A stretch of DNA of 47,691 nucleotides. It comes from a virus. The stretch covers positions 1 through 47,691 of the IMG/VR virus record IMGVR_UViG_3300010885_034283; one strand, written 5' to 3'. The notes beneath the pieces were generated by a model. That model saw only the letters and a list, made by a program, of their open reading frames with translations, did no database searches and was not told the origin of the DNA. The position numbers and the translations under genes are program-made. Below, piece by piece: positions 4,879-47,691 of this stretch. Positions within the stretch are counted from its first letter, which is position 1. Each line of letters starts with the position of its first letter.

Positions 4879-4884
4879 TCTAGG

Positions 4885-4892
4885 GTTAAATA
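4885..4892 (+). promoter_or_regulatory. Late promoter-like box GTTAAATA (portal)
   Basis: Six of eight matches to TATAAATA with an intact TAAATA core, 23 bases before the portal ATG. Confidence 0.55.
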
Positions 4893-4915
4893 TAACACAC
4901 TAGGGAATCCCAATA

Positions 4916-6637
4916 ATGTCATGGAAAAAATACTTTAAGGCGCCAACGCCGGCCAGCAACTTCAGTCCAATATCTGGAAGAGAACAGCCAGTCAACCCCG
5001 ATTTTAGAAATTACCAAAGCCAATTGCCTGAAGTATACATTGGGCACCCAAATCGTGTAGAACGCTACAATCAGTACGAACAAATGGATATGGACAGTGA
5101 GGTCAATGCCGCACTGGACATTCTTGCGGAATTTTGTTCACAGCCAAATGAAGACAATGGCACACCATTTGACATCAGTTTCAAGGAACAACCTACTGAT
5201 AACGAAATCAAAATCATCAAAGAGCAGTTACAGCAGTGGGTGAGTCTAAACGAATTCAACAAGCGCATGTTCAAAATTGTGCGCAACACACTAAAGTACG
5301 GCGACCAAATTTTCCTGCGTGATCCAGAAACATTCAAACTGTTCTGGGTAGAAATGACCAAAGTTACCAAAGTTATTGTAAACGAAGCAGAAGGCAAAGA
5401 GCCCGAACAGTACCTGCTTAAAGATCTAAACATCAACTTTCAAAATTTGACAGTGACCGCAGTTGCAGCCAGTGACACATATACAAATCACCCACAAATG
5501 GGTGGCGCACAAGGCAGTTATGTGCAGTCTAACACACCATTTGCAGGTGGCAGTCGTTTTGCTCATGCCAAAAATGAAAGTGCAATTGAAGCACAGCACA
5601 TACTACACCTAAGCCTAACTGAAGGACTAGATGTATACTGGCCGTTTGGTATCAGTGTACTAGAAAACATTTTCAAAGTGTTCAAGCAAAAAGAACTGCT
5701 GGAAGACGCTATCATTATCTATCGTGTGCAACGTGCGCCAGAGCGTAGAATTTTCAAGATTGACGTGGGCAACATGCCAAGTCACATGGCCATGGCGTTT
5801 GTGGAACGTATCAAGAACGAAGTGCATCAGCGCCGTATACCCACACAAACAGGTGGTGGCACAAACATGATGGATGCCACATATAACCCACTCAGCACCA
5901 ACGAAGACTACTTTTTTCCTACCACAGCAGACGGTCGTGGATCTTCTGTAGAAACACTAGCAGGCGGTACTAACCTAGGTGAAATCACAGACCTGCGATT
6001 CTTTACCAACAAGCTGTTCCGTGGCCTGCGCATACCGTCCAGCTACTTACCCACAGGACTAGATGACGGTACAGCCAGCTTTACTGACGGTAAAGTAGGC
6101 ACAGCACTAATACAAGAATGGCGTTTCAACCAGTACTGCAAGCGACTGCAAGCGGCAATGGCACACAAGCTAGACGAAGAATTCAAGCTGTTTATGAAGT
6201 GGCGCGGTGTCAACATTGACGGACAGTTGTTTGATTTGATCTTTACTGAACCGCAAAACTTTGCACAGTATCGTCAGGCAGACGTGGACACTGCACGTAT
6301 CGCTACATTTACACAGCTAGAAGCACTGCCATACTTTAGCAAACGCTTCTTGCTCACACGCTATCTAGGCCTCACAGAAGCTGAAATGGCAGAAAACGAT
6401 CGTATGTGGGCAGAAGAACACGGCGAAGCAGAAAGCGCAGTGTCACAGGAAGGTGGCAGTGCATTGCGTAGCGTGGGTATCACACCTGGTGGTATCAGCG
6501 CAGACATTGAAAGCCTAGCACCGCCGCCCGAAGGCGGAGAAGCTGGCATGCCACCACCCGGGGCAGAAGGAGCACCACCTGTTGGAGGAGCACCGCCTGC
6601 CACACCAGGAACTGCCAGCCCAGTGGGCAGTGCCTAA
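4916..6637 (+). CDS. gp20: Portal vertex protein gp20
   Basis: A 573-residue T4-type portal (T4 gp20 is 524). The portal dodecamer initiates prohead assembly, docks the terminase and later joins the neck. Recognisable features are the N-terminal YNQYEQMDMDSEVNAALDIL segment, the wing/clip region with RAPERRIFKIDVGNMP near residue 275, and SSYLPTGLDDG near residue 378 before a C-terminal helical part. The last ~40 residues form a Pro/Gly/Ala-rich low-complexity tail (PPP, GGE and APP repeats), not a feature of T4 gp20. It follows the tape measure after 37 bases with its own late-type box. Identification is firm. Confidence 0.93.
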   Translation: MSWKKYFKAPTPASNFSPISGREQPVNPDFRNYQSQLPEVYIGHPNRVERYNQYEQMDMDSEVNAALDILAEFCSQPNEDNGTPFDISFKEQPTDNEIKIIKEQLQQWVSLNEFNKRMFKIVRNTLKYGDQIFLRDPETFKLFWVEMTKVTKVIVNEAEGKEPEQYLLKDLNINFQNLTVTAVAASDTYTNHPQMGGAQGSYVQSNTPFAGGSRFAHAKNESAIEAQHILHLSLTEGLDVYWPFGISVLENIFKVFKQKELLEDAIIIYRVQRAPERRIFKIDVGNMPSHMAMAFVERIKNEVHQRRIPTQTGGGTNMMDATYNPLSTNEDYFFPTTADGRGSSVETLAGGTNLGEITDLRFFTNKLFRGLRIPSSYLPTGLDDGTASFTDGKVGTALIQEWRFNQYCKRLQAAMAHKLDEEFKLFMKWRGVNIDGQLFDLIFTEPQNFAQYRQADVDTARIATFTQLEALPYFSKRFLLTRYLGLTEAEMAENDRMWAEEHGEAESAVSQEGGSALRSVGITPGGISADIESLAPPPEGGEAGMPPPGAEGAPPVGGAPPATPGTASPVGSA

Positions 6638-6650
6638 ATTGTACATTTTG

Positions 6651-6658
6651 GGTAAATA
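6651..6658 (+). promoter_or_regulatory. Late promoter-like box GGTAAATA
   Basis: TAAATA core ending only 5 bases before the ATG of the 77-residue gene. If used, the transcript would be leaderless or nearly so, or would serve genes further downstream. Confidence 0.4.
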
Positions 6659-6663
6659 ACAAT

Positions 6664-6897
6664 ATGTATATAACAGAATTTTGGGCACAAGACCCTGCAG
6701 GCTACAGAGACGAAAAACAAGACAATTCGCCTCTTAAAATCTCTGACCTGCGCAAAACTAGACTCACACTTGGCCAGTTGAATCGTTTACGTATGATGAA
6801 TGATGTACGTAAATTTGAGCACGACGGCAAGATGGAAGATCTTAAAAAACAATACTCTGCACCAGCTGCCGGCGAAGGCGCACCGGCCAGTCTCTAA
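6664..6897 (+). CDS. Small conserved protein between portal and prohead core genes
   Basis: A 77-residue protein of unknown function. The middle part (LRKTRLTLGQLNRLRMMNDVR, then KFEHDGKMEDLKKQY) is basic and likely a helical hairpin; the C terminus is Ala/Gly-rich. In T4 the short genes 67 and 68 lie between 20 and 21. This protein lacks the acidic tail of gp67, and the next gene fits gp67 better. It may therefore be a prohead core component in the gp68 position, but no residue-level evidence supports that. A terminator-like hairpin follows at 6919-6942, separating it from the next gene. Confidence 0.65.
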   Translation: MYITEFWAQDPAGYRDEKQDNSPLKISDLRKTRLTLGQLNRLRMMNDVRKFEHDGKMEDLKKQYSAPAAGEGAPASL

Positions 6898-6918
6898 TTA
6901 TCTTACAAAATTCTTCAA

Positions 6919-6942
6919 AAAACACCTATATTAGGTAGTTTT
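6919..6942 (+). terminator. Terminator-like hairpin before the prohead core gene
   Basis: Stem AAAAC-ACCTA / TAGGT-(A)-GTTTT with a TAT loop and one bulged A, ending in a T run. It lies just upstream of the late-type box TGTAAATA, so it would separate two transcription units. Confidence 0.5.
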
Positions 6943-7954: not shown

Positions 7955-8596
7955 ATGGCTTCGTACCTAAGAGAGAATCTTACATTTGATGCGGCCCGTA
8001 TGGAGCTTCTAACAGAAGAAACCAACGACGGCAAAGGCGGTAAGAATCTCTATATGAAAGGGGTATTCATCGAAGGTGGCTTGAAAAACGCCAACCAACG
8101 TGTTTACCCTATTCACGAAATATCAAAAGCCGTAAGCACCATCAATGAGCAGATCAAAGGTGGCTATTCCGTATTGGGTGAAGTAGATCACCCAGATGAC
8201 TTGAAAATTAACCTTGACAGAGTTAGCCACATGATCACTGACATGTGGATGGACGGTCATTGTGGTTACGGAAAATTAAAAGTGTTACCGACTCCAATGG
8301 GTAACCTGGTTAAAACCATGTTGGAAAGCGGAGTCAAACTAGGTGTGAGCAGTCGCGGATCAGGTAATGTAAGCGAAGGCTCGGGACATGTGAGTGATTT
8401 TGAAATAATCACGGTGGATGTGGTCGCCCAACCATCCGCTCCTCATGCATATCCTCATGCAATCTACGAAGGCATGATGAATATGCGCAACGGTCATAGG
8501 GTGTTGGAAATCGCTGGCGAGGCTGGCGGAAATCAACGAGTACAAAAGTATTTGAAAGAGCAGGTAACTCGCTTGATCAAAGACTTGAAACTATAG
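7955..8596 (+). CDS. gp21: Prohead core serine protease gp21
   Basis: A 213-residue homologue of T4 gp21, the protease that matures the prohead by cutting scaffold, capsid and internal proteins, usually after (L/I)-x-E. The catalytic pattern is visible: His79 in GEVDHPDD, Ser132/133 in GVSSRGSG, and a likely third residue Asp155 in TVDVVAQPS. The length is close to T4 gp21 (212). It starts 16 bases after the prohead core gene and lies 10 bases before the scaffold gene, the standard 67-21-22-23 order. Its cleavage preference matters for the candidate internal proteins elsewhere in this window. Confidence 0.93.
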   Translation: MASYLRENLTFDAARMELLTEETNDGKGGKNLYMKGVFIEGGLKNANQRVYPIHEISKAVSTINEQIKGGYSVLGEVDHPDDLKINLDRVSHMITDMWMDGHCGYGKLKVLPTPMGNLVKTMLESGVKLGVSSRGSGNVSEGSGHVSDFEIITVDVVAQPSAPHAYPHAIYEGMMNMRNGHRVLEIAGEAGGNQRVQKYLKEQVTRLIKDLKL

Positions 8597-9723: not shown

Positions 9724-10896
9724 ATGACAACCGCACTACTAGAAAGCCGTTGGGGCGAAACCAAAGACGCTCTGTTAGAAGGCTTAAACGGTTCACGTAG
9801 AACCACAATGAGTGTAATCCTCGAGAACACTCGCAAGCACTTGGCTGAAAATGCAACAGGTGGCGCTACTAGCTCAAGCAACGTAGCAACATTGAATCGC
9901 GTTATTCTTCCAGTGATTCGTCGTGTAATGCCGACAGTTATTGCTAACGAAATCGTTGGTGTTCAACCAATGACCGGACCTGTTGCACAGATCCACACAT
10001 TACGTGTTCGTTATGCAGACAACGTGTCTGGCACAAGCGGCGCAACTGGCGCATCTGCTGGTGATGAAGCATTGAGCCCATTCCGTATTGCTACTGCATA
10101 CTCGGGTGGTACCAATGGTTATCCATCAAGCACTTCAACCCTTGAAGGTGTTCCAGGTAATCGTATCAACGTTCAAATCTTGAAACAAGTTGTGGAAGCT
10201 AAAACCCGCAAATTGTCAGCACGTTGGACATTTGAAGCTGCTCAAGACGCACAAGCCATGCATGGTTTGGATGTCGAAGCAGAAATCATGGCCGCTCTTG
10301 CACAAGAGATTACCGTTGAAATCGACCAAGAAATTCTTGGATCACTACGTAGCCTAGCCGCTACAGACTTCACATACGACCAAAACGCAGTATCTGGTAC
10401 AGCTACATTCGTTGGTGACGAGCATGCCGCATTGGCAGTTCTAATCAACCGTGCCGCTAACCAAATCGCACAGCGTACACGTCGTGGTGCGGCTAACTGG
10501 GCAGTTGTAAGCCCAGCCGCATTGACTGTTCTTCAGTCAGCAACTACATCAGCATTTGCTCGTACCACAGAAGGTACATTCGAAGCTCCTACAAACACCA
10601 AGTTTGTTGGTACTTTGAACAGCGCAATGCGTGTGTATGTTGACAGCTATGCAAGCGATAGCACACCAGTTCTAGTTGGTTACAAAGGTTCTAGCGAGGC
10701 AGATGCTGCCGCGTTCTATTGCCCTTACGTGCCATTGATGAGCTCTGGTGTTGTTCTTGATCCAAACACATTCGAACCAGTCGTAGGATTTATGACTCGT
10801 TACGGATATGTTGAATTGACAAACACTGCGTCTTCTCTAGGAAACGCCGGTGACTACTTGTCAGAGATCGCTGTAAGCAACCTAACATTCCAATAA
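9724..10896 (+). CDS. gp23: Major capsid protein gp23
   Basis: A 390-residue T4-type major capsid protein with an HK97-like fold in this family. It is clearly shorter than T4 gp23 (521), suggesting absence of the T4 insertion domain. The N-terminal propeptide (first ~42 residues) contains several L-x-E/I-x-E sites; the last is L40-A41-E42, a plausible gp21 maturation cut before N43. The conserved stretch VILPVIRRVMPTVIANEIVG follows directly. The SD sequence GGAG overlaps a CCTAAATA box at 9703-9710, so that box is a doubtful promoter. A strong terminator follows at 10931. No gp24-like vertex paralogue is seen in the window. Confidence 0.95.
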   Translation: MTTALLESRWGETKDALLEGLNGSRRTTMSVILENTRKHLAENATGGATSSSNVATLNRVILPVIRRVMPTVIANEIVGVQPMTGPVAQIHTLRVRYADNVSGTSGATGASAGDEALSPFRIATAYSGGTNGYPSSTSTLEGVPGNRINVQILKQVVEAKTRKLSARWTFEAAQDAQAMHGLDVEAEIMAALAQEITVEIDQEILGSLRSLAATDFTYDQNAVSGTATFVGDEHAALAVLINRAANQIAQRTRRGAANWAVVSPAALTVLQSATTSAFARTTEGTFEAPTNTKFVGTLNSAMRVYVDSYASDSTPVLVGYKGSSEADAAAFYCPYVPLMSSGVVLDPNTFEPVVGFMTRYGYVELTNTASSLGNAGDYLSEIAVSNLTFQ

Positions 10897-36609: not shown

Positions 36610-37248
36610 ATGAAAATAACTGAAATTATTGTAGAAGAAAAAGTCCGCTTGGATCCCAAGTGCTGGACAGGTAAAAAGATTGGTAACCCCAAGACCAAGG
36701 TCAAGGGCGGAGTACGTGTGAATAACTGTGTGCCTGCCGAGGCAGTTGAAGAAGCGGCCAATGCCGCTCAACAGGCTGCTATTGCAGTCAACATGAAGAA
36801 GGCAGGCAAAAAACCCAAGACAGAAGACCTGTCAGAAGAATTTGATTTAATTGAATCAATCGTTGAAACTATTGCTGAACGCAATGGAGTTGACGCTGAC
36901 GCAATTTGGGAAGATTTAGAAAGTCTAACAGACGATGAACTGTATGTGTTTGCAGTGACGTCAGATCCTATTATGGAGAGCGAAGCCTGGCAGAAAGCCA
37001 ACAATCGTGACAAGACAGACGGCATGAGCCGCAAAGCAGTTAAAACTTATCGCAGAGAACACCCTGGCAGCAAATTGCAAACTGCTGTGACCACTAAGCC
37101 TAGTAAGTTAAAGAAAGGCAGTAAGGCCAGCAAGCGTAGATCAAGCTACTGCTCACGCAGTCGTGGACAAATGAAAATGCACAGCATTTCATGCGCAAAG
37201 ACTCCGGACAAGGCCATCTGCAAAGCACGTAGACGTTGGAACTGCTGA
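36610..37248 (+). CDS. Candidate packaged internal protein with capsid-targeting-like N terminus
   Basis: A 212-residue protein whose N terminus MKITEIIVEE resembles the T4 capsid-targeting sequence MKTYQEFIAE that sends internal proteins into the prohead and is cut by gp21. The middle (residues ~75-135) is acidic and helical (LIESIVETIAERNGVDADAI). The C-terminal ~75 residues are strongly basic with cysteines: GMSRKAVKTYRREHPGSKLQ, later SKRRSSYCSRSRGQMKMHSI and ending KARRRWNC. I recall this basic C-terminal domain from many phage proteins of unknown function. Nucleic acid binding inside the capsid is a reasonable inference. It follows gp13 by 3 bases and is coupled to the next gene by one base. 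Confidence 0.7.
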   Translation: MKITEIIVEEKVRLDPKCWTGKKIGNPKTKVKGGVRVNNCVPAEAVEEAANAAQQAAIAVNMKKAGKKPKTEDLSEEFDLIESIVETIAERNGVDADAIWEDLESLTDDELYVFAVTSDPIMESEAWQKANNRDKTDGMSRKAVKTYRREHPGSKLQTAVTTKPSKLKKGSKASKRRSSYCSRSRGQMKMHSISCAKTPDKAICKARRRWNC

Positions 37249-37249
37249 T

Positions 37250-37627
37250 ATGAAAATTACTGAAATTGTAGCTGAAGCTCGTGCAGGCAAAGTACCAGAT
37301 AACTTCAAGCAGTCAAACGCAGGCCTGCATACGTTTGGCGATGCAGAAAAAATGAACTCAGACTATGCACACTATCGCCTTGGGCTTGCACTGGCTATGA
37401 GCGATGGCAAAAACAAGCTGGACATTGATCCAAAAACGTTCTACGGTAAAAAGCACACAGCACATCCTTACACACAGGAAGAAGCCAACATGCTAAAACA
37501 AAGCTACGCCGCAGTAGGTGCCAGCTATGAAGATTTGAATCACGGTGATCTAACCAGCAAAGAGCTAGACGACACTCACAAAGCAAGTCCTGTTGCTCCA
37601 AAGAAAAAGAACAAATACGGTGTTTGA
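37250..37627 (+). CDS. Second candidate internal protein with capsid-targeting-like N terminus
   Basis: A 125-residue protein starting MKITEIVAEARAG; the first six residues equal those of the preceding gene, and V-A-E before A fits the gp21 cut in T4 internal proteins (MKTYQEFIAE, cut before A). The body is DYAHYRLGLALAMSDGKNKL, then KKHTAHPYTQEEANMLKQSY and AVGASYEDLNHGD, ending in a Lys-rich tail. I recall this body as a common phage protein of unknown function. The ATG overlaps the end of the preceding gene with a one-base gap. A strong sigma70-like promoter begins at the stop codon. Confidence 0.7.
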   Translation: MKITEIVAEARAGKVPDNFKQSNAGLHTFGDAEKMNSDYAHYRLGLALAMSDGKNKLDIDPKTFYGKKHTAHPYTQEEANMLKQSYAAVGASYEDLNHGDLTSKELDDTHKASPVAPKKKNKYGV

Positions 37628-37652
37628 CATTTGCCAAATTATAAAATATAAT
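37624..37652 (+). promoter_or_regulatory. Consensus sigma70 promoter of dNMP kinase
   Basis: TTGACA (37624-37629), 17-base spacer, TATAAT (37647-37652): a perfect match to the sigma70 consensus. The predicted start is near 37659, 16 bases before the ATG. Confidence 0.9.
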
Positions 37653-37674
37653 ACTTCTAACACCGGGGGTATGT

Positions 37675-38313
37675 ATGATAATAGGTATTTGTGGTTTTAT
37701 TGGCAGCGGCAAGGATACAGCCGCTGATTATCTAGTAGGGTTCCATGGCTTTAGACGAGACAGCTTTGCTGGCACTCTTAAAGACGCTGTAAGCGCAGTG
37801 TTTGGTTGGGACCGAGAACTAATTGAAGGACGCACACCTGAAGCTCGTGCCTGGCGCGAGCAAGTTGATCCTTGGTGGGCTGAACGACTGCAAATGCCAC
37901 ACTTGACCCCACGATGGATTCTACAGTGGTGGGGCACCGAAGTATGCCGCACTCACTTCCATGATGACATTTGGATTGCGGCATTGCAATCGCGACTGGC
38001 ACGCCGCAGTGATCACACTGTGATCAGCGATGTACGTTTTCCAAACGAAATCAAAGCAATCAAAGAACAAGGCGGGCGTATTGTGTGGGTACAGCGTGGT
38101 GTTATACCGCACTGGTATGACATTGCTTGCAAGGCCAACCGAGGTGATACAAAAGCACAGCAATGGCTGACTGACAATGCTATCCATGCAAGTGAAACGT
38201 CATGGGTGGGCACAGACTTTGATGTGATTGTTGACAACAATGGAAGCATTGAGCAACTGTATGCACAGATCAAAGATCTGGCTCGAGCTCCCCAGGCTTC
38301 CACGACAGCTTAG
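37675..38313 (+). CDS. gp1: Deoxynucleoside monophosphate kinase (gp1-like)
   Basis: A 212-residue member of the T4 gp1 family, which phosphorylates deoxynucleoside monophosphates to diphosphates for phage DNA synthesis. The P-loop GFIGSGKDT lies at residues 7-15 with Lys13. Further family features are FGWDRELIEGRTPEARAWRE near residue 43, PRWILQWWGTEVCR near 82 and VISDVRFPNEI near 114. It has the strongest host-type promoter of the window and no late box, fitting early expression. Its 3' end overlaps the convergent HNH-like gene by 44 bases. It sits alone among virion genes, separate from other nucleotide metabolism. Confidence 0.9.
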   Translation: MIIGICGFIGSGKDTAADYLVGFHGFRRDSFAGTLKDAVSAVFGWDRELIEGRTPEARAWREQVDPWWAERLQMPHLTPRWILQWWGTEVCRTHFHDDIWIAALQSRLARRSDHTVISDVRFPNEIKAIKEQGGRIVWVQRGVIPHWYDIACKANRGDTKAQQWLTDNAIHASETSWVGTDFDVIVDNNGSIEQLYAQIKDLARAPQASTTA

Positions 38314-38623
38314 ATTTAGAAATAGTACACAAGCAGTTCAAGCACACTGTTTTCAAGTTGACCCAACTGATGTTTTTCAAGTCGCCATCAATGTGGCACA
38401 CAGTCAGTTGCTCTTTTGGAAACGGTGCTTTGAACTTGCAAACCTCGCAAGTTTCTTTTTTCCTATAGCCACTCTTGAACCATAGTGGTGGATTTGCTTT
38501 GGCCCGCTTACCTTTGCGCAAGCAGTGGCTACACAGTTTACGGTAATAAATCTTCTCTTTGCGTAAATAATTGATTGCCACTGGTCTGCTATGGCACGTT
38601 AAACATATTTTTCTAGATTGCAT
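38270..38623 (-). CDS. Zinc-binding HNH-like endonuclease
   Basis: A 117-residue protein with four CxxC pairs (C7/C10, C31/C34, C59/C62, C94/C97) and the His-Me/HNH-like core LTVCHIDGDLKNISWVNLKT followed by CLNC. It is the size of a freestanding homing-type or nicking HNH endonuclease. The ATG at 38623 is used because upstream sequence in frame contains an exact late box TATAAATA on the minus strand (38628-38635) and only a TTG start. The promoter-to-ATG distance is so short that the message would be leaderless; if the box is fortuitous, the TTG start at 38665 is the alternative. It overlaps the dNMP kinase end. Confidence 0.7.
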   Translation of the reverse strand: MQSRKICLTCHSRPVAINYLRKEKIYYRKLCSHCLRKGKRAKANPPLWFKSGYRKKETCEVCKFKAPFPKEQLTVCHIDGDLKNISWVNLKTVCLNCLCTISKSKLSWKPGELEPDL

Positions 38624-38627
38624 GGAG

Positions 38628-38635
38628 TATTTATA
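38628..38635 (-). promoter_or_regulatory. Late promoter box TATAAATA on minus strand
   Basis: Exact T4 late box on the minus strand, ending 4 bases before the ATG at 38623 of the HNH-like gene. Confidence 0.55.
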
Positions 38636-38685
38636 CGCCTGACCTTTATAAAGGCACCTCAACAAGCCCGAAAAAGCAAGTTCCC

Positions 38686-38693
38686 GGTAAATA
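38686..38693 (+). promoter_or_regulatory. Late promoter-like box GGTAAATA (sheath)
   Basis: TAAATA core 32 bases before the sheath ATG; the ribosome site AAAGGAAATTAACC lies between. Confidence 0.6.
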
Positions 38694-38725
38694 ACTTTAA
38701 CATGTTTCGTTAAAGGAAATTAACC

Positions 38726-41700
38726 ATGGCAACTCTAGTTTCTCCCGGTTTAAGTATAACCGTTTCAGATGAAAGTCAATACGTCCCAGCTGGTACTGGT
38801 ACCGTTCCACTTGTCATCTTCGCAACAGCACAAGACAAACTCAATCCTTCCGGGGACGTGGCGTCTGGTACTACAAAAATTAATGCTAACACATTAAACG
38901 CATACGGCAGTCAGCGCGAACTTATCAACGCATTTGGCTACCCAACATTCAAGAAGAGCGCAGGCACTGCTATTCATGGCGATGAGCTAAATGAATACGG
39001 TTTGCATACAGCGTACTCAGTTCTTGGACTTGGTAACAGCGTATATGCACTTCGTGCAGACATTGATATGAACCAACTGGTTGGTACTAGTGTGCGCCCT
39101 AAAGGTGCAGTACCTGACAGCACAATTTGGCTAGACTTGTCTGGCAGTAAGTTTGGTATTTTTGAATGGGATCAGTCTACTCGTACATTTACTGGCAAGA
39201 CTCCTATCCTTGTTACTGCAACCGAAGACACAACATTGGCAAGCGGCGTTCGCCGTCCAATTAGCTCAATTGGTTTGATCGGCGATTACGCTATTGTGTT
39301 GAAAGACGCAAACAATCCTGTATTCTACAAAAATGCTGCCAACACTTGGGTAGCAGTTGGTACTGACGATTGGGCCACTTCATGGGCATCTGTACAAAGT
39401 TCTATTGCAACTTTGCCAGTGGTAACCAGCAATATTCAAATTCGTATCAACACAACACAAGTCACAATGACTAGTATCACAGCGGCAGCTGATGTGGTAA
39501 CACGTATTAATGCCGCTGCCATTGATGGCGTAACAGCCGCATTGGTTGCAGGTCGTTTGGTACTGTACGCAGACAGCACATCTGCAAGCGATGGCACAAA
39601 TGCTGATGGTCAAATTACACTAGCCGAAGGCGACGATCCTGGCTTGTCAGAGTTGGGTCTTACTGCTGGAACTTACGCATTGCCAGAATTGCATTTTGGC
39701 AGCTACACAGCCGCTCCTGCATGGAACTCTACTGATGTAACTCCACGTCCAACTGGTTCTATCTGGGTTAAAACATCTGTACTAGGTGCAGGCGCTAACT
39801 GGACATTCAAAACATACAACGCAACAACTGACGCTTTTGCTGACTCAGCCGCTCCGTTGTACGCTGATCGTGCAAGTGCAATCTATGCATTAGACGTAGG
39901 TGGCGGTGGGTTTGGTATTGCTAAGAATACATTGTTCCTTGATTATGGTACATTGAATCCAGCACAGTATCCAGCATCATTCAAAGTTTACAAGCGTGTG
40001 CGTGACGGCGTTACAAAGACAACTGGATCAACACCAGGATCGTTTACTGTGTCTGACTCATTTACTATCACAGTGACACAGCCAGGCACATCAACAAAGA
40101 CTACATACACTGTTACACTTGATGCTACCACCGTTAACGGATTTGTTGCAAAAGTATTGAGCAAAGGTATTCCTAACTTCTCTTGCCAAGTTGAAAGCTC
40201 TGGCAACATCAGCTTTACACACCGCACTGGTGGTGAGATTGAACTGGCAGAAGTGGGTGGCGGCACAGCACTTGCTGATGGCGGTTTCACTAGCGCAACT
40301 TCAGGCATTATTGTTGACCCGGTTACTTCTAATCTAGTAGCTTCTAACTGGGGTGTTGCAAGCTATACCTACAGCACCAGCGAGCCATATGCTGAACCAG
40401 CAGACGGCACATACTGGTACTACAGCGACATGCTTGACGTTGACATCATGGTTGCAGACACAGCAGGATGGAAAGGTTATCGTAACGTCAGCGCAGACGC
40501 TCGCGGATATGACCTAACCAACACAGATCCAACAGGTCCAATTATCACAGCCAGCAAGCCAACTACTCAAGTTAGCGGCGACCCATTGGTAGGCGGCGAC
40601 TTGTGGATTGACAGCAGTGACTTAGAAAACTTCCCAGTAATTTATCGTTACAGCGGAACAACCTGGGTCAAGATCAGCAACACTGATCGCACTAGCCAAA
40701 ATGGTATTGTGTTTGCAGACGCACGTTGGGACACTGACGGTACAAGCGATCCAATCAGCGGTACCTTACCAACCATTGCTGAACTACTAGTAAGCGATTA
40801 TCAAGACTTGGATTGCCCGAGTTACCAATTGTACCCACGTGGTACACTGTTGTTTAACACACGCCGCTCAGGCGGTAACGTGAAACAATATGTTGGCGCT
40901 AAGTTTACAGATGACAACTATCCAAACGATTCATTGCCAGCAGAGCCAAGCACATGGGTCAATGCAAGTGGCAATGCGGCCAACGGTACACCATACATGG
41001 GCCACAAAGCTCAACGTGCAATGGTTGTTGCCGCTCTAAGAGCCGCAATTTCCAGCAACACACGAATTCGTGAAAGCCAATTCTCATTCAACTTGATTGC
41101 TTGCCCAGGTTATCCTGAGTTGCTGTCAGGCATGAAACAATTGAACGTTGATCGTTCAGAGACAGCTTTTGTTGTGGGCGACACACCAATTGACTTGGCA
41201 GCTAACAGCACCAATATCATTGATTGGAGCAACAATGTTGCAACAACAGCAGACGTTAACACAGCTTTGTACTATCCAGCTTGTTTGACCAATGCGCTTG
41301 ACGGCACAGAAATTGTTATGCCTGCAAGTCACATGGCATTGCGTACATTCTTGTACAATGACAATGTGAGCTATTCATGGTTTGCTCCAGCAGGCGCACG
41401 TCGTGGTTTGGTTGACAATGCAACAGCAGTTGGTTACCTGGATCGTAGCACCGGCTTGTTTATCAAGAATGGTGTTAACAACGCATTGCGTGATACACTG
41501 TACTTGAACCGTATCAATCCTATCACTAACTTACCAGGTGTTGGGTTGGCAGTGTTTGGTCAGAAAACACGTAGTCCAATTCCACAAGCAACTGATCGTG
41601 TGAACGTAAGTCGCTTGGTAAACTACATCCGTACAATCCTGTCAGGTATTTCAAACAGCTTCTTGTTTGAACCAAATGACAAGATCACACGTGATCAGAT

Positions 41701-41917
41701 CAAAGCCATCATTGATGGCGCAATGAACGACCTGGTTGCCAAGCGTGGTGTATACGACTACCTAGTGGTTTGCGATGACAGCAACAACACACCAGCTAGA
41801 ATTGCTAGAAACGAATTGTATGTAGACATTGCAATTGAACCAATGAAAGACGTTGAGTTCATCTACATTCCAATCCGCTTGAAGAATCCTGGCGCAATCG
41901 CAGGAGGCGGCAAATAA
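38726..41917 (+). CDS. gp18: Tail sheath protein gp18
   Basis: A 1063-residue contractile sheath protein, much larger than T4 gp18 (659). The N terminus (ATLVSPGLSITVSDESQYVP) and the C-terminal ~300 residues (RESQFSFNLIACPGYPELLS, SRLVNYIRTILSG, ending YIPIRLKNPGAIAGG) are the conserved core. The middle holds extra domains: IQIRINTTQVTMTSI...DVVTRINAAAIDGVTAALVA near residues 235-280 resembles a flagellin-hook-like insert, and YTVTLDATTVNGFVAKVLSK with following GNISFTHRTGGEIEL near 460-510 is of similar type. These would sit on the outside of the sheath. It is followed by a hairpin and the tube gene. Confidence 0.92.
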   Translation: MATLVSPGLSITVSDESQYVPAGTGTVPLVIFATAQDKLNPSGDVASGTTKINANTLNAYGSQRELINAFGYPTFKKSAGTAIHGDELNEYGLHTAYSVLGLGNSVYALRADIDMNQLVGTSVRPKGAVPDSTIWLDLSGSKFGIFEWDQSTRTFTGKTPILVTATEDTTLASGVRRPISSIGLIGDYAIVLKDANNPVFYKNAANTWVAVGTDDWATSWASVQSSIATLPVVTSNIQIRINTTQVTMTSITAAADVVTRINAAAIDGVTAALVAGRLVLYADSTSASDGTNADGQITLAEGDDPGLSELGLTAGTYALPELHFGSYTAAPAWNSTDVTPRPTGSIWVKTSVLGAGANWTFKTYNATTDAFADSAAPLYADRASAIYALDVGGGGFGIAKNTLFLDYGTLNPAQYPASFKVYKRVRDGVTKTTGSTPGSFTVSDSFTITVTQPGTSTKTTYTVTLDATTVNGFVAKVLSKGIPNFSCQVESSGNISFTHRTGGEIELAEVGGGTALADGGFTSATSGIIVDPVTSNLVASNWGVASYTYSTSEPYAEPADGTYWYYSDMLDVDIMVADTAGWKGYRNVSADARGYDLTNTDPTGPIITASKPTTQVSGDPLVGGDLWIDSSDLENFPVIYRYSGTTWVKISNTDRTSQNGIVFADARWDTDGTSDPISGTLPTIAELLVSDYQDLDCPSYQLYPRGTLLFNTRRSGGNVKQYVGAKFTDDNYPNDSLPAEPSTWVNASGNAANGTPYMGHKAQRAMVVAALRAAISSNTRIRESQFSFNLIACPGYPELLSGMKQLNVDRSETAFVVGDTPIDLAANSTNIIDWSNNVATTADVNTALYYPACLTNALDGTEIVMPASHMALRTFLYNDNVSYSWFAPAGARRGLVDNATAVGYLDRSTGLFIKNGVNNALRDTLYLNRINPITNLPGVGLAVFGQKTRSPIPQATDRVNVSRLVNYIRTILSGISNSFLFEPNDKITRDQIKAIIDGAMNDLVAKRGVYDYLVVCDDSNNTPARIARNELYVDIAIEPMKDVEFIYIPIRLKNPGAIAGGGK

Positions 41918-41928
41918 TAGTGTCAGTT

Positions 41929-41953
41929 AATGGAACGGCTAGTCCGTTCCATT
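41929..41953 (+). other. Perfect 10-bp palindrome between sheath and tube genes
   Basis: AATGGAACGG/CCGTTCCATT with a CTAGT loop, 11 bases after the sheath stop. No T run follows, so it may be an RNA-processing or stability hairpin more than a terminator. A late-type box for the tube gene follows at 41969. Confidence 0.6.
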
Positions 41954-41968
41954 CTGAAACCAATTTGC

Positions 41969-41976
41969 GATAAATA
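41969..41976 (+). promoter_or_regulatory. Late promoter box GATAAATA (tube)
   Basis: Seven of eight matches to TATAAATA, 19 bases before the tube ATG; ribosome site AATAGGAGA. Confidence 0.7.
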
Positions 41977-41995
41977 TGAGTAATAGGAGAATATA

Positions 41996-42631
41996 ATGGC
42001 AGTCTCGTCACTAACAAAATTCACAGTACCGTTGGCCACTAATCAAAGTGCGTCTAATCAAGGTCTGTTGATGCCAAAACTAGGTTACAGATTCCGTGTA
42101 ACATTTAGTAACTTTGGTGTTAACCCAACCACAACAGAACTCACTAAACAAGTGATGGACTGCACTCGCCCTCAAGTTTCTTTCGGGGACTTGAACATCG
42201 ATGTCTACAACAGCAAAGTTAAATTGCTAGGCAAACCAGACTGGACTGATATCACAATCAACCTACGTGATGATGCCGGCAACGAAGTTAGTCGTTTGGT
42301 AAGTCAACAAGTTCAGAAACAATTTGACTTTATGGAACAAGCATCAGCAGCCGCTGGTATTGACTATAAGTTTATCACCAAGCTAGAAGTACTAGATGGG
42401 TCACAAGGTGCCGAAGCAGGCATTCTTGAAACTTGGGAAATGTACGGTTGTTTCTTGCAACAAGTAGCATACGGTGAGATGAATTATGCCAACGCAGAAG
42501 CAGTTAAAATTGCACTAACAGTACGCTATGATAACGCACTGCAAGTAGCAGGCGGCACAGGGATTGGTACATACGTTGGAGAACGTATTGCTGGTTCCTT
42601 GGCAAAAGGCGCACGTATTATCACTGGCTAA
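41996..42631 (+). CDS. gp19: Tail tube protein gp19
   Basis: A 211-residue member of the T4 gp19 tail tube family, which stacks as hexamers inside the sheath to form the DNA channel. Family features are YRFRVTFSNFG near residue 31, CTRPQVSFGDLNIDVYNSKV near 55, WTDITINLRDDAGN near 82 and the closing ANAEAVKIALTVRYDNALQV near 170. It is longer than T4 gp19 (163). It is directly downstream of the sheath gene, as in T4, and followed by a strong terminator. Confidence 0.92.
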   Translation: MAVSSLTKFTVPLATNQSASNQGLLMPKLGYRFRVTFSNFGVNPTTTELTKQVMDCTRPQVSFGDLNIDVYNSKVKLLGKPDWTDITINLRDDAGNEVSRLVSQQVQKQFDFMEQASAAAGIDYKFITKLEVLDGSQGAEAGILETWEMYGCFLQQVAYGEMNYANAEAVKIALTVRYDNALQVAGGTGIGTYVGERIAGSLAKGARIITG

Positions 42632-42651
42632 TCAAGTCAGACGGCAAGTTC

Positions 42652-42679
42652 AAGCCCGGCTAACCCCGGGCTTTTTTTT
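42652..42679 (+). terminator. Intrinsic terminator after the tail tube gene
   Basis: Stem AAGCCCGG/CCGGGCTT, 6-base loop, followed by a long T run; 20 bases after the tube stop. Confidence 0.9.
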
Positions 42680-42681
42680 GG

Positions 42682-42689
42682 ACTAAATA
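42682..42689 (+). promoter_or_regulatory. Late promoter-like box ACTAAATA
   Basis: TAAATA core right after the tube terminator and 21 bases before the ATG at 42711. Confidence 0.5.
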
Positions 42690-42710
42690 TCTAATATAGG
42701 ACACTTGCCA

Positions 42711-44096
42711 ATGGGAATGCTAGACCAATTTCTTTCTGAAGCTTTTACGGGACCACAGTTGCGGGACTTTCGTCACGCCAGTCAGTTGTTCACAACCAAC
42801 AACTATGAACTAAGCCCCAAGTATCAGTTTCTGTTTTTTGTTCGCATTACGCTGAACTCAAACCTAACTAGGCTTCCTAAAGATAGGCAACTAGAGATAG
42901 GTGTTCTAGCAAAAACAGTTGATCTGCCCAAGTACTCGGTAGAGGTAAAAAACTTCAATGCCTACAATCGTCCAAACCTAGTGCAGTCAAAATTAAAATA
43001 CGATCCAATCAATCTCAAGTTTCACGATGATTCGTCTGACATCATTAGAGAATTTTGGTATGACTACTACAGCTACTACTATCGTGACAGTGATTATACT
43101 GATGCACTTTATGGTGCAAGCCACAAGTATCAACCACGAATGACACAGGACTGGGGTTATACTCCGCTGTCGGGCAAGTACTTTGATGACGACAACCAAA
43201 TGATCAAAGCAATTGATATTTTTAGTTTCCACCAAAAACGATTCAGTTGCTATACATTGCAAAACCCCATTATCACATCATTCAAACACGGTAGTCATGC
43301 ACATGACGGCACTAGCTTGATGGAACACGACATGAGTGTGCAGTTTGAAACTGTGAACTACTCCAAGGGATTTGTCACTCCCAACAACTTTGGTGACATG
43401 ACACTGCATTATGATCTGAACCCTAGTCCTCTTACTCCCGCAGGTGGTGGCACACAAAGTATCCTTGGTCCAGGCGGCATACTTGACGCGGCAACAGATA
43501 TCACACAAGATCTCAAGGATGGCAATATCTTAGGCGCCATATTCAAAGGCGGTCGTGCCATACAAGCAAACAAAAACACAAACCTTAAAGGACTGGCAAT
43601 TGATGAACTCAAAAGCATTGGTACAGGCATACTTCGAGGTCAAAATCCCAGCAGCCGTATTGCAGTGCCTGGCGTGAGTGATTTGATTGGCGGAATATCC
43701 AAAGGTGTAGACGGTGTGTTTAGTAGCATAGCAGGTGGTGGTGGCATTGGCCGCGGCACCGGAGGGTCCAGTGTGGCATTGCTGGCTGGACTTGGTATAG
43801 CTGCCTCTAAGTTCCTTCCGGGTGCCACACGAGACCAAGCTGCCGCACCAACAACCAGCCGTGCTATAACCAGCAATGGTGGCAGTGTGGTAGACACACA
43901 TTATCAAGCACCTGACAACTGGAAACGTCAATGGCCAGCAATACCATCTTCTGTTGAGCAAGCCAAGGCTGGAATATTTGCCAATCCAAAATACACCGAT
44001 GTTGCTGGCAAAGAGTATGCAAACATCAACTATGATTATGAAGCAAAACTAGCATCAAATCAAAACAAACCTGACTTTGGAGACAATTTTGCATGA
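42711..44096 (+). CDS. Tail tube-like baseplate protein (gp54/gp48 role possible)
   Basis: A 461-residue protein with a tube-fold-like N-terminal half. VLAKTVDLPKYSVEVKNFNA followed by YNRPNLVQSKLKYDPINLKF and HDDSS near residues 66-110 follows the pattern of gp19-type tube domains, and SLMEHDMSVQFETVNYSKGF near 205 is the closing strand region. In T4, gp48 and gp54 are tube-like proteins that start the tube on the baseplate. The C-terminal half is Gly/Ser/Ala-rich (GGGGIGRGTGGSSVALLAGL) with a hydrophobic patch. Start: ATG 42711 with AGGA nine bases upstream; the TTG at 42705 is rejected. A tube initiator or baseplate cap is inferred. Confidence 0.6.
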   Translation: MGMLDQFLSEAFTGPQLRDFRHASQLFTTNNYELSPKYQFLFFVRITLNSNLTRLPKDRQLEIGVLAKTVDLPKYSVEVKNFNAYNRPNLVQSKLKYDPINLKFHDDSSDIIREFWYDYYSYYYRDSDYTDALYGASHKYQPRMTQDWGYTPLSGKYFDDDNQMIKAIDIFSFHQKRFSCYTLQNPIITSFKHGSHAHDGTSLMEHDMSVQFETVNYSKGFVTPNNFGDMTLHYDLNPSPLTPAGGGTQSILGPGGILDAATDITQDLKDGNILGAIFKGGRAIQANKNTNLKGLAIDELKSIGTGILRGQNPSSRIAVPGVSDLIGGISKGVDGVFSSIAGGGGIGRGTGGSSVALLAGLGIAASKFLPGATRDQAAAPTTSRAITSNGGSVVDTHYQAPDNWKRQWPAIPSSVEQAKAGIFANPKYTDVAGKEYANINYDYEAKLASNQNKPDFGDNFA

Positions 44097-44473
44097 GTAA
44101 TCCCAGCAACCTAGAACCAGTAAACCTAAGTCCACTGGACCCACAACTATCGTCTACCAAATACTTTAATAATTTTTTTGTCAAGGACCTCAACATAGCG
44201 ACCAACGTCAACGATAGTGTCATTGCATTTTTTGATCAGTACACCGGCAATCAAGCCAGTGCTAAAATTCTTGCAACCAGTGTGATACTAACCAGCTTGG
44301 CACAAAACATCAATCCAATGAGCACACTGGCTGAACTTAAAAAAGTTGGCCGTGGTGAACTCAACACTTATTTGGCCATGTTCCTGAATCTCAATAGAGT
44401 GGGCACAAGTTTGCTTGGACTAAACAATCAACCTATCACATCCAACTACGTCAAACGCACCATAATGATATGA
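44093..44473 (+). CDS. Small virion or assembly protein, unknown
   Basis: A 126-residue protein that starts in an ATGA overlap with the preceding gene and ends in an ATGA overlap with gp4, so the three are translationally coupled. It has a conserved-looking C-terminal part: LAELKKVGRGELNTYLAMFL, NLNRVGTSLLGLNNQ and SNYVKRTIM. The N terminus is polar (NPSNLEPVNLSPLDPQLSST). I recall a similar protein near gp4 in other marine T4-like phages, without assigned function. Location between a tube-like and a head-completion protein suggests a structural or assembly role. Confidence 0.65.
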   Translation: MSNPSNLEPVNLSPLDPQLSSTKYFNNFFVKDLNIATNVNDSVIAFFDQYTGNQASAKILATSVILTSLAQNINPMSTLAELKKVGRGELNTYLAMFLNLNRVGTSLLGLNNQPITSNYVKRTIMI

Positions 44474-44904
44474 GCAAGTATGCCCAGGGCAAATTCCAGA
44501 TAAAGAATCCGTCAAAGTATGTGGGCAACAAAACACCCACATATCGTTCAGGATGGGAATTTGTATTCATGCAGTTTTGTGACAACAATCCCAGGGTGAT
44601 ACAATGGGCCAGTGAAGCAGTACACATACCTTACCGCAATCCCTTTACCAACAAGAACACTATCTACGTTCCGGACTTTTTGATTGTGTACGAAGACAAA
44701 AACGGCCAGAAGCATGCAGAAGTAATAGAAGTCAAACCCAGCAAGGAAGTCAGCATGGAAGGCGCAAAAAGCCTGCGTGATCAAGCCTTTGTGGCGCTGA
44801 ATGCAGCCAAATGGGAAGCCGCCAGGGCCTGGTGCAGGAATCAAGGCTTAACCTTTCGCATAGTTACCGAGGATATGATTTTCCACCAGGGAAAAGCTCG
44901 GTAA
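44470..44904 (+). CDS. gp4: Head completion protein gp4, PD-(D/E)xK nuclease fold
   Basis: A 144-residue protein of the T4 gp4 (gp50) type needed to finish the packaged head before tail joining. It carries a complete-looking nuclease core: Glu30 in SGWEFVF, Asp69 in VPDFLIVYED, and Glu87-x-Lys89 in EVIEVKP, the PD-(D/E)xK order typical of TnsA-like endonucleases. The same order suggests it may be catalytically active. T4 gp4 has 150 residues. It overlaps the preceding gene by four bases. Confidence 0.78.
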   Translation: MSKYAQGKFQIKNPSKYVGNKTPTYRSGWEFVFMQFCDNNPRVIQWASEAVHIPYRNPFTNKNTIYVPDFLIVYEDKNGQKHAEVIEVKPSKEVSMEGAKSLRDQAFVALNAAKWEAARAWCRNQGLTFRIVTEDMIFHQGKAR

Positions 44905-44911
44905 ATATGGT

Positions 44912-45388
44912 ATGACTAAAAAACTCGAACAACTGTTTGATCTTCCAGACGCTCAACAAGGTGATCCAGCAGAAACAATTAGTGAGCACAAAGATACTAT
45001 ACTTGCTATAGACGATGCTATAGACAAGATCGATGCCGCACTACCCACAGTGCGGGACTTGGAAACAGCAGATAGCGAAATGGACGAGCTGGCCAAACTG
45101 GCACAGGACAAGTTTGAAGACCTAATGGATCTGGGCATGAATGTAGAACCACGCTACTCTGGTGTGATCTTTCAAACAGCCGGCATGCTACTGGGTCATG
45201 CTATCACAGCCAAACAAGCCAAGCTAGACAAAAAACTACGCATGGTTGATCTACAGCTGAAGAAAGCTAGACTGGATCAAGTGGCCAAAAAGGATGCTCC
45301 GCCTGAAGAATCAGCCATACAAGGGCAAGGCATGATAATTGATAGAAATGAATTGCTCCGCAGTATCCTTGGCAAAAAAAATGATTAA
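44912..45388 (+). CDS. gp16: Terminase small subunit gp16
   Basis: A 158-residue helical protein of the T4 gp16 family (164 residues), the regulatory subunit that recognises DNA and stimulates gp17. The family region is LGMNVEPRYSGVIFQTAGML followed by LGHAITAKQAKLDKKLRMVD, residues ~72-115, equivalent to the T4 SPR-x-x-EVF...LMGQM...KLHK pattern. The N-terminal part is acidic with a helix (ILAIDDAIDKIDAALPTVRD). A TAAATA sequence at 44902 overlaps the gp4 stop and lies 4 bases before this ATG, so I do not count it as a promoter. The large subunit gp17 is not in the window. Confidence 0.82.
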   Translation: MTKKLEQLFDLPDAQQGDPAETISEHKDTILAIDDAIDKIDAALPTVRDLETADSEMDELAKLAQDKFEDLMDLGMNVEPRYSGVIFQTAGMLLGHAITAKQAKLDKKLRMVDLQLKKARLDQVAKKDAPPEESAIQGQGMIIDRNELLRSILGKKND

Positions 45389-45392
45389 AAAG

Positions 45393-45400
45393 AATAAATA
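45393..45400 (+). promoter_or_regulatory. Late promoter box AATAAATA
   Basis: Seven of eight matches to TATAAATA, 21 bases before the ATG at 45422; ribosome site AATAGGAA. Confidence 0.65.
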
Positions 45401-45421
45401 TCAAATAATAGGAATTTTCAC

Positions 45422-45997
45422 ATGAAATCTTTTACTGAATATTTGACAGAAAGCCATAGACAGTATGGATTCCGTGTCAAAGTTGCCGGATGCGATCTAG
45501 ACAAAGACATGCTAGACCACATTGAGCAAGGACTAACTGCATACGATCTAGCAGACATTAGCAAACCCAAGCGTTTGCCTATCGCACACACAAACGAATT
45601 CCATAAACTTGGCGCAGTTGAGCGTCATGTTTTTGATATCAAAACAAACTATCCTGCCAATCCTCCAATGATTGCGCAGAACATTCACAACAGCACAGGT
45701 ATTCCACTGGGTAACATTATGGTGATTGACCCCAACAACGACAACGAAGGTGCTATTGTGCATGAGCCAGGCGAACCATTGCTGGCCAACACAGACCTAG
45801 TGGACGATGTTAAGAATTCGCAAGACCAAGTTGGCGACAAGCATGTGATGAGTTTCTTGAAGAGTCTTGAAACAACCAAGCATGAGTTTGCGGCAAAAGA
45901 AAAGACAGACAGCAAGTCCACAAACGATTTGCCACAGGGCACTACCAGCCCAGTAGGCAGCAACAAGAATAAATTACAAGGCGCAAGAGGAAAATAA
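45422..45997 (+). CDS. Third candidate internal/capsid-scaffold protein with targeting-like N terminus
   Basis: A 191-residue protein starting MKSFTEYLTES. This fits both halves of the T4 capsid-targeting pattern: MKxxxEx at the start and L-T-E before S, an (L/I)-x-E gp21 site at residues 8-10. The domain that follows (QYGFRVKVAGCDLDKDMLDH, later VERHVFDIKTNYPANPPMIA) is one I recall from phage proteins labelled capsid and scaffold protein. The C-terminal 40 residues are disordered and basic (KSTNDLPQGTTSPVGSNKNK). It has its own late-type box and leads the next gene by one base, so the two are coupled. Confidence 0.75.
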   Translation: MKSFTEYLTESHRQYGFRVKVAGCDLDKDMLDHIEQGLTAYDLADISKPKRLPIAHTNEFHKLGAVERHVFDIKTNYPANPPMIAQNIHNSTGIPLGNIMVIDPNNDNEGAIVHEPGEPLLANTDLVDDVKNSQDQVGDKHVMSFLKSLETTKHEFAAKEKTDSKSTNDLPQGTTSPVGSNKNKLQGARGK

Positions 45998-45998
45998 T

Positions 45999-47691
45999 AT
46001 GAGCAAGCACAACGACATTTACAGCATCTTAGGCAAGCTGAATTCACTTGAGCCTAAAGCACCCACTGCCAAACAGCCAGTGACAGAAGACAATTCTAGT
46101 ACATTCAAGAAAGATCTTGTTCAACGACTGAGCGAAAGCTATGTTGCTGAAAAAGATATGGGCAAGCACAACAATGCTACCACAGGCTTCAAGGCATTGG
46201 CCAAGAAAGCCGGCGGCGGTGAAAAAGGTGAGCGGATTGCTGGCGCACAGTTTCAGAAAATGAAGAAGGCTGGGCAACTAGAAGAAGAGCCAATGGATGC
46301 TCGCGCTGCCGCTGCCGCAAAGCGAGCCGAGTGGGCTCGTGCCGCACAAGAATTAATCAAGAATCCTGATCCAGAGTATGCGGCAATGCATGCCAAGAGA
46401 GCAAAAGAACTAGATGATCTTGAAGCTCAACGTACCGCGGCAGCAAAGAAGAAAACTTGGACGCCACCTACTGCACGGACTTCAACTGATACCATGGAAG
46501 AATCCTCATCAAAGCGCGGCGGCAAAAGACGTCTCCAGGACGCACTAGATGCTGTACAAGATGACGGTCCAGAGATGCTGATATATCATGCCATTGCCGC
46601 AATGTACGGTAATGACATGTGGGACAATGATGCCATGGGCGATCTAGTGAATGACCTCGAACAAGTAAACCCAACAGAAGATGAATTAAAATATATCGTT
46701 TTCAATGCAGAATTACCGCCACGCTTGAAGAACACACGATTCACCAACACAGATGATGTACAATTTGGTCACTTGGGTGAAGCCGATATGGATGAAGACA
46801 TGCTGTCCAAGCCAGACTACGTTGACCTTGACAAGGATGGCAACAAGAAAGAGCCAATGAAGAAGGCTGCTAAAGACGCCAAGAAGACCAACGAAGGCTA
46901 TGACGACATCACTGATCAAGGCGAGTATGACCGCGAAGGCGAAATGGCTGACCAAGATCTTGAAACAGCAGAAGACGCCGCAGAAGAACTACGCAGTATC
47001 CTTGACGCAGATGAGAACTTGCCAGAGTGGGTACAAGCAAAAATTACAAAAGCAGTTGACTACCTAGACACAGCACGTGACTACATGCAGAGCAAAGACA
47101 GCGGCGAAGAAGTTCAAGAAGGTGAGTACAAAGACTCTCCTAACAAGAGTGATGTTCCTGCATTCCAACGCAAAGCCAAAGGCGGCGACTGGAAAGTTTC
47201 TACCAAAGACCTAGATGACGAAGCAAGCAAAAGCCCAACAGGTTCGGCAGGCTTGGCCAAAGCCAAGGAACGACTAGGCATGAAAGAAGGACAAACAATC
47301 CAGACCAAGACTGGCTTGATCCACAAAGGATCTTACGGCAGTGACTATCAAGGCAGTGACGAAGAAGATGATGACTACGGTTCATCAACTTCCAGCACCG
47401 GAGAAAAGAAACGTGGACGTCCACGTATTCATGCCAAGAAAGATCCCGACGCACCAAAACGTGGTCGTGGTCGTCCAAAGAAAGTAGCAGAGCATATCAA
47501 TCTCTCCACCTTTGTGGAAGACACACTGGCAGAGATGGCAGCCATCTATGAAGGCAAGCCTGACTTCTTGGACATGGACAAAGATGGTGACAAAGAAGAG
47601 CCGATGAAAAAAGCCATTGGCGACAAGTGGAAGCCAGCTAAAACCTCCAACGCATTCACGCAGACAGCACCTTATCCGTCCTTCAAGAAAA
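45999..47691 (+). CDS. Large AT-hook, acidic-repeat head protein (partial, runs off window)
   Basis: At least 564 residues, open at the window end. Features in order: a helical start; a basic segment KHNNATTGFKALAKKAGGGE near 60-90; (K/R)-rich KRGGKRRLQDALDAVQDD near 170; two copies of a DxDxDG(N/D)KxEPMKKA motif, at about residues 273-286 and 527-540, which resembles a calcium-loop; and two AT-hook cores, GRPRIH and RGRGRPKK, at about residues 473-492. Possible gp21 sites (L-S-E, L-E-E, L-G-E, L-A-E) fall between these parts. It could be a packaged DNA-binding polyprotein; this is inference. I recall similar DxDGDKxEPMKKA motifs in marine phage head proteins. The ATG follows GAGGAAAATAAT. 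Confidence 0.7.
   Translation, partial: MSKHNDIYSILGKLNSLEPKAPTAKQPVTEDNSSTFKKDLVQRLSESYVAEKDMGKHNNATTGFKALAKKAGGGEKGERIAGAQFQKMKKAGQLEEEPMDARAAAAAKRAEWARAAQELIKNPDPEYAAMHAKRAKELDDLEAQRTAAAKKKTWTPPTARTSTDTMEESSSKRGGKRRLQDALDAVQDDGPEMLIYHAIAAMYGNDMWDNDAMGDLVNDLEQVNPTEDELKYIVFNAELPPRLKNTRFTNTDDVQFGHLGEADMDEDMLSKPDYVDLDKDGNKKEPMKKAAKDAKKTNEGYDDITDQGEYDREGEMADQDLETAEDAAEELRSILDADENLPEWVQAKITKAVDYLDTARDYMQSKDSGEEVQEGEYKDSPNKSDVPAFQRKAKGGDWKVSTKDLDDEASKSPTGSAGLAKAKERLGMKEGQTIQTKTGLIHKGSYGSDYQGSDEEDDDYGSSTSSTGEKKRGRPRIHAKKDPDAPKRGRGRPKKVAEHINLSTFVEDTLAEMAAIYEGKPDFLDMDKDGDKEEPMKKAIGDKWKPAKTSNAFTQTAPYPSFKK

Follow-up and report, generated by a model that had tools for sequence, protein, structure and literature searches.

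The T4-like jumbo phage fragment IMGVR_UViG_3300010885_034283 from IMG/VR, a stretch of 47,691 bases that was analysed in full and is called the window here, encodes three proteins whose first residues resemble the capsid-targeting leader of the T4 internal proteins. Gene A (36610-37248, 212 aa, start MKITEIIVEE), gene B (37250-37627, 125 aa, MKITEIVAEA) and gene C (45422-45997, 191 aa, MKSFTEYLTES) lie on the plus strand and begin with ATG, at the positions and with the N termini given in an earlier note on this DNA. The T4 signal named there is confirmed by the T4 record, in which IPII and IPIII both start with MKTYQEFIAE, annotated as a 10-residue leader. The gp21 prohead protease that the note had also placed in the window, which is the presumed processing enzyme, is encoded at 7955-8596 (plus strand; Peptidase_S77, Pfam E 3.8e-25; PHROG 207 E 2.6e-57), and portal, gp23, neck, and head-closure genes accompany it. 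We propose, with a probability of roughly 80%, that A, B, and C each begin with a capsid-targeting propeptide of 9-10 residues, with cleavage and ejection following as predicted steps of the mechanism.

Three tagged proteins in one window

In T4, residues 4 and 7 of the tag govern targeting and residues 8 and 10 processing, the 10 residues of IPIII are enough for packaging, and gp21 cleaves after L/I-X-E (PMC9026906). The tag of C (MKSFTEYLTE, 45422-45451) is in the T4 register, with 10 residues, aromatic residues at positions 4 and 7 (F4, Y7) as in the T4 leader, and L-T-E at residues 8-10. The tags of A (MKITEIIVE, 36610-36636) and B (MKITEIVAE, 37250-37276) are one residue shorter than that of T4 and represent a variant with A/I/V at position 3 and F/I at position 6, defined here as M-[KR]-[AIV]-x-[ED]-[FI]-[ILV]-x-E. 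The predicted cut follows I-V-E (residues 7-9) in A and V-A-E in B, where most relatives carry I or L in place of the Val. Motif-bearing starts were found in 3 of the 39 window genes. When residues 2-20 of each N terminus were shuffled, the mean was 0.009 tagged starts, with three never reached in 20,000 trials, and permuted motifs averaged 0.01 in the window and never exceeded 1. As the motif was fixed only after the finding had been seen, these figures describe rarity, and the blind tests are those in related phages.

Beyond the tags, the three bodies are unrelated, as had been noted earlier (best pairwise BLAST E at least 0.017 once the first 11 residues of A and B are set aside). The body of A (36637-37248) consists of a KCW...NCVP motif, an acidic middle, and a C-terminal domain that bears out the very basic, Cys-containing domain of the earlier description (residues 121-212: isoelectric point (pI) 10.8, net charge +20, four Cys); mature A would have a pI of 9.5 if cut after E9. 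Residues 133-210 (37006-37239) match DUF6321 (Pfam PF19846, E 4.6e-8), passing the curated cut-off with 34.0 versus 28.5 bits. Judged by composition, A most likely binds nucleic acid via this basic domain. In cyanophages (L005-L008), larger proteins without the tag end in DUF6321, and most of them are encoded beside terminase genes. The 116-residue body of B (37277-37627) ends in KKKNKYGV, the Lys-rich tail described before, and is represented at 79 IMG/VR loci; its low-quality AlphaFold2 (AF2) model (pTM 0.38) had no significant fold match. For B, the most likely role is that of a small accessory protein packaged in the head. One correction to the earlier picture concerns C, which, once cut at the predicted site, would be acidic (pI 6.1). 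Searches of PDB sequences with A, B, and C returned nothing useful.

A deoxynucleoside monophosphate kinase gene (37675-38313) adjoins the tagged genes A and B, and the kinase-like EST35_0194 of phage PA5oct occupies the same place and is listed in its record as detected by mass spectrometry (MS). The window's gp23 (9724-10896, plus strand) shares 67-69% identity with those of the jumbo phages Phosso, PA5oct, and CBB, and its presumed propeptide ends in H-L-A-E followed by N-A (residues 39-44). L-x-E followed by N or S occurs at this site in 13 tag-bearing records, in the window, and in PA5oct, consistent with the published gp21 specificity of L/I-X-E (PMC9026906). One in-frame TAA each was seen within the gp23 match of L310 (G016) and within the C match of L367 (G001).

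The tag on unrelated bodies in related phages

Relatives of B were taken from the 79 IMG/VR loci, and the alignment of homologous N termini that the earlier note had suggested was made with 46 sequences. Of the tag columns, M1 and E9 are invariant (46 of 46), and a variable linker comes next. Relatives of A retain the tag at the same position on different bodies, while the architecture of the remaining protein changes. Across the loci found by homology to A and B, 160 distinct tagged proteins fall into 16 body clusters, and the motif stands at the start of 260 of 2076 genes versus 9 of 9123 internal Met. A DNA pattern independent of the bodies (M-R-A-x-E-F-[I/L/V..]-x-E) matches at least 120 IMG/VR stretches; a control with E-F swapped to F-E matches 12 in the whole collection. 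Among the matches listed, 153 of 159 tag hits lie at most 40 codons from the upstream stop of the open reading frame (ORF), compared with 5 of 12 controls, and these comprise at least 156 distinct tagged proteins in at least 30 unrelated body clusters, often adjacent and nearly always at ORF starts. The conserved tag residues are each encoded by several codons, and therefore selection acts on the protein. In PA5oct and in each of two relatives some 355 kb long, 4-5 genes are tagged, versus 0.04-0.09 for permuted motifs.

Tagged genes also occur in tandem cassettes, with six close together plus one near match in L073 and four in L280. The bodies of the L073 cassette (1476-6922) are unrelated to each other and include a Nudix enzyme (Pfam NUDIX, 1e-25), a GH19-like protein (GH19, 3e-13; this is the near match), a DUF6321 protein, a DnaJ-type zinc-finger-like protein, a possible metalloprotease, and two ADP-ribosyltransferase-like proteins, one with a sub-threshold Pfam match and one with none. 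A further tagged protein (L276:6640-7242) has a Pfam match to ADP-ribosyltransferase exoenzyme (E 9.5e-13). In L264 (2913-5680, minus strand), two tagged genes are adjacent, and one of them encodes a 704-residue protein with LysM and phage lysozyme domains, whose N-terminal part looks by eye like one of the L073 ADP-ribosyltransferase-like proteins. NCBIfam gave no name to any of eight tagged bodies.

The protease gp21 (S77) was detected in 17 of 27 tag-bearing records, including all records larger than 240 kb, and in 17 of the 18 that have gp23. Its absence from the other ten says little, because nine of them also lack gp23 and one begins at gp23. In named phages, the 10-residue pattern recovers three T4 proteins (IPII, IPIII, and gp61.1) and six MX01 genes, four of which are annotated as internal proteins (ipII, IpIII, Ip7, and Ip9), and the reversed pattern has no match in either genome. 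The sensitivity of this pattern is limited, as T4 IPI is missed. The T4 gene for gp61.1 (NC_000866, 18966-19130, minus strand) encodes a hypothetical protein that starts with MKTFKEFIKE, a capsid-targeting-like leader. The 9-residue pattern occurs at three sites in PA5oct and two in Phosso; T4 and MX01 have none.

Protein C and the virion proteins of PA5oct

C is a core gene, near-universal in this phage group, and probably encodes a virion protein. Of the 17 tag-bearing records with detected gp21, 15 have it, and 12 of 15 family members match PHROG 14802, a family annotated as virion structural protein. An IMG/VR search with C alone gave one close relative only, and the others were obtained from the loci retrieved with B and through a profile search in the tag-bearing records. 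In the alignment of 12 sequences, including the window's own, F4, Y7, L8, and E10 are all invariant; a further 16 records have F or L at position 4, and 15 of them retain E10. Immediately downstream of C, a long charged ORF (45999-47690) runs off the end of the window; it contains an AT-hook-like motif, and the motif D-x-D-x-D-G-[DN]-K-x-EPMKKA occurs twice in it.

In the AF2 model of C, residues 4-9 of the tag form a helix, modelled with lower confidence, that lies outside a confidently predicted ferredoxin-like core (residues 15-102), and the remainder of the body (45452-45997) is a disordered tail. Foldseek linked this model to the T-even protein Ip7 (probability 1.00, E 1.2e-3), and the best PDB folds were generic ferredoxin-like proteins with E above 0.001. 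In sequence, C aligns with Ip7 from residue 1, at low probability (hhalign probability 34), and the match to the Ip7 family PHROG 2667 is weak (E 0.21 for the window C, 0.0069 for the best member). These sequence and fold lines are weak but agree, and C may be distantly Ip7-like. Like C, Ip7 of Dhakavirus MX01 carries a T4-register tag followed directly by a small alpha/beta domain; C differs in its longer disordered tail and in being a near-universal virion gene of its phage group.

Evidence from virions comes through PA5oct, whose record flags coding sequences detected by electrospray ionisation tandem MS and which bears on A, B, and C by homology only. The PA5oct homologue of C (EST35_0202; 25% identity over 177 columns) is MS-noted, as are two proteins with the strict tag (EST35_0150 and EST35_0238) and four with tag-like starts (EST35_0205, 0230, 0380, and 0381). 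With a relaxed motif, chosen post hoc, 6 of 10 tag-like genes are MS-noted compared with 87 of 439 others (p 0.007). EST35_0150 carries the 9-residue tag and matches a window protein of 77 residues, encoded next to the portal gene (6664-6897, plus strand), only from just past the tag; the window protein has the divergent start MYITEFWAQ.

Proposed targeting, cleavage, and ejection

Prohead targeting by these N termini is well supported, because the tag is modular, is under constraint as protein sequence, and occurs in phages with gp21 and gp23, and because several tagged PA5oct proteins are MS-noted. Cleavage of the tag by gp21 is likely, and ejection into the host is suggested by analogy with T4. 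In the proposed mechanism, a short N-terminal helix would dock its protein on the core of the assembling prohead, gp21 would cut behind the [L/I/V]-x-E motif, the freed body would stay with the DNA inside the head, and at least some of the bodies may enter the host along with the genome. These phages would fuse the 9-residue variant seen on A and B to many unrelated cargoes, and C would represent a T4-register tag on a core virion protein with a ferredoxin-like domain resembling T-even Ip7. The earlier note had grouped all three as one set of proteins loaded into the head. This holds for targeting, but C is not accessory cargo like the other two: A and B are accessory cargo with the 9-residue variant, and C is probably a core virion protein with a T4-register tag.

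The closest known system, IPI-IPIII of T4 (Straboviridae), likewise combines short N-terminal M-K...[E][F/Y][I/L]xE tags with gp21 in the genome and a few unrelated bodies per genome, and A is basic as the T4 internal proteins are. The bodies found here are unrelated to those of T4, their cleavage and injection are predicted, and the A and B tags have nine residues and lack the aromatic residue 4. This missing residue is one of several observations that weigh against the proposed role. The P3 residue of B is Val, which is found in 12% of tagged relatives, and the published gp21 preference is for Leu or Ile. Cyanophage DUF6321 proteins are untagged, phAPEC6 and GAP32 lack the 9-residue pattern and CBB has it only once, and E10 is missing from the C homologues of PA5oct, Phosso, and G017. 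With the strict 9-residue motif, only two of four PA5oct genes are MS-noted (p 0.19), and some tagged proteins have peptidoglycan-hydrolase domains, of which action in the cytoplasm is not expected.

The tag is short and was recognised by eye, and phage proteins commonly open with MK and then acidic and hydrophobic residues, so that a chance likeness has to be considered; it is hardly credible given the swapped control (12 versus at least 120 matches), the roughly 0.01-0.09 hits per genome of permuted motifs against 3-5 tagged genes, and an E9 that is invariant in 46 B homologues next to a variable linker. Coincidence was rejected on the swapped, permuted, and shuffled controls. Tagged genes frequently lie side by side and overlap, and T-even phages exchange their ip genes as cassettes, which would fit a common 5' recombination or translation-initiation segment shared as DNA. 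We consider this very improbable, as upstream sequences differ, each conserved residue is encoded by several codons, and conservative replacements (K/R, E/D, F/I, and I/L/V) dominate. The DNA-level explanation was rejected on the codon variety at conserved tag residues.

An explanation closer to ours retains the tag as a structural docking element and leaves the proteins in the virion as assembly or structural parts of the head core, neck, or tail, with no ejection. It draws on the presence of C in nearly all related genomes and its family annotation, on the position of EST35_0150 between portal and protease in PA5oct, where it looks like a small core protein, on two distant C homologues that keep the helix and lose E10, and on the lysozyme-like domains among tagged proteins. 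We regard it as unlikely, since A and B are accessory, their tagged counterparts vary from phage to phage, and ADP-ribosyltransferase and Nudix bodies suit action in the host better than a structural role. For C alone, the N-terminal helix could be an integral and uncut part of the folded protein, as the loss of E10 in PA5oct, Phosso, and G017 and the lack of a variable linker between tag and domain might suggest. This is possible, although we doubt it: F4, Y7, L8, and E10 are invariant in the 12 aligned sequences, the model places the helix outside the core at lower confidence, and a T4 capsid-targeting sequence with Asp at position 10 is still targeted though unprocessed (PMC9026906). We favour capsid-targeting propeptides for all three proteins.

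Other head-packaged proteins offer further parallels. T4 Alt is a head-packaged ADP-ribosyltransferase, and the likeness to L276:6640-7242 is by domain only, on a related contig outside the window. The inner-body and ejection proteins of phiKZ-like giant phages such as SPN3US are also head-packaged and processed by a prohead protease, with processing that varies between homologues (PMC5694885); their propeptides are mostly much longer, and the 9-10 residues seen here are as in T4. Proteins injected by T4 include type IV restriction enzyme inhibitors and a host-modifying ADP-ribosyltransferase (PMC12373910, PMC9026906), and the T4 principle and its use in finding T-even ip genes are already known (PMC12373910). 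No description of the tag outside T-even phages was found in the open-licence literature searched, and neither "capsid targeting" nor "internal protein" appears as a term in a jumbo-phage review of 2026 (PMC13282480).

On balance, we lean towards a broader reading in which the distinct 9-residue tag of jumbo T4-like phages with an S77 protease would be a general system for loading fast-exchanging head-packaged enzymes, encoded in tandem cassettes and including ADP-ribosyltransferases, Nudix hydrolases, lysozymes, and unknown domains, so that the tag alone may predict injected effectors. Injected phage proteins are normally learned phage by phage through MS. Should the 9-residue tag prove to be a genuine signal for prohead targeting, the injected candidates of uncultured jumbo phages could be listed from sequence alone, and the tag could serve to load chosen proteins into jumbo phage heads.

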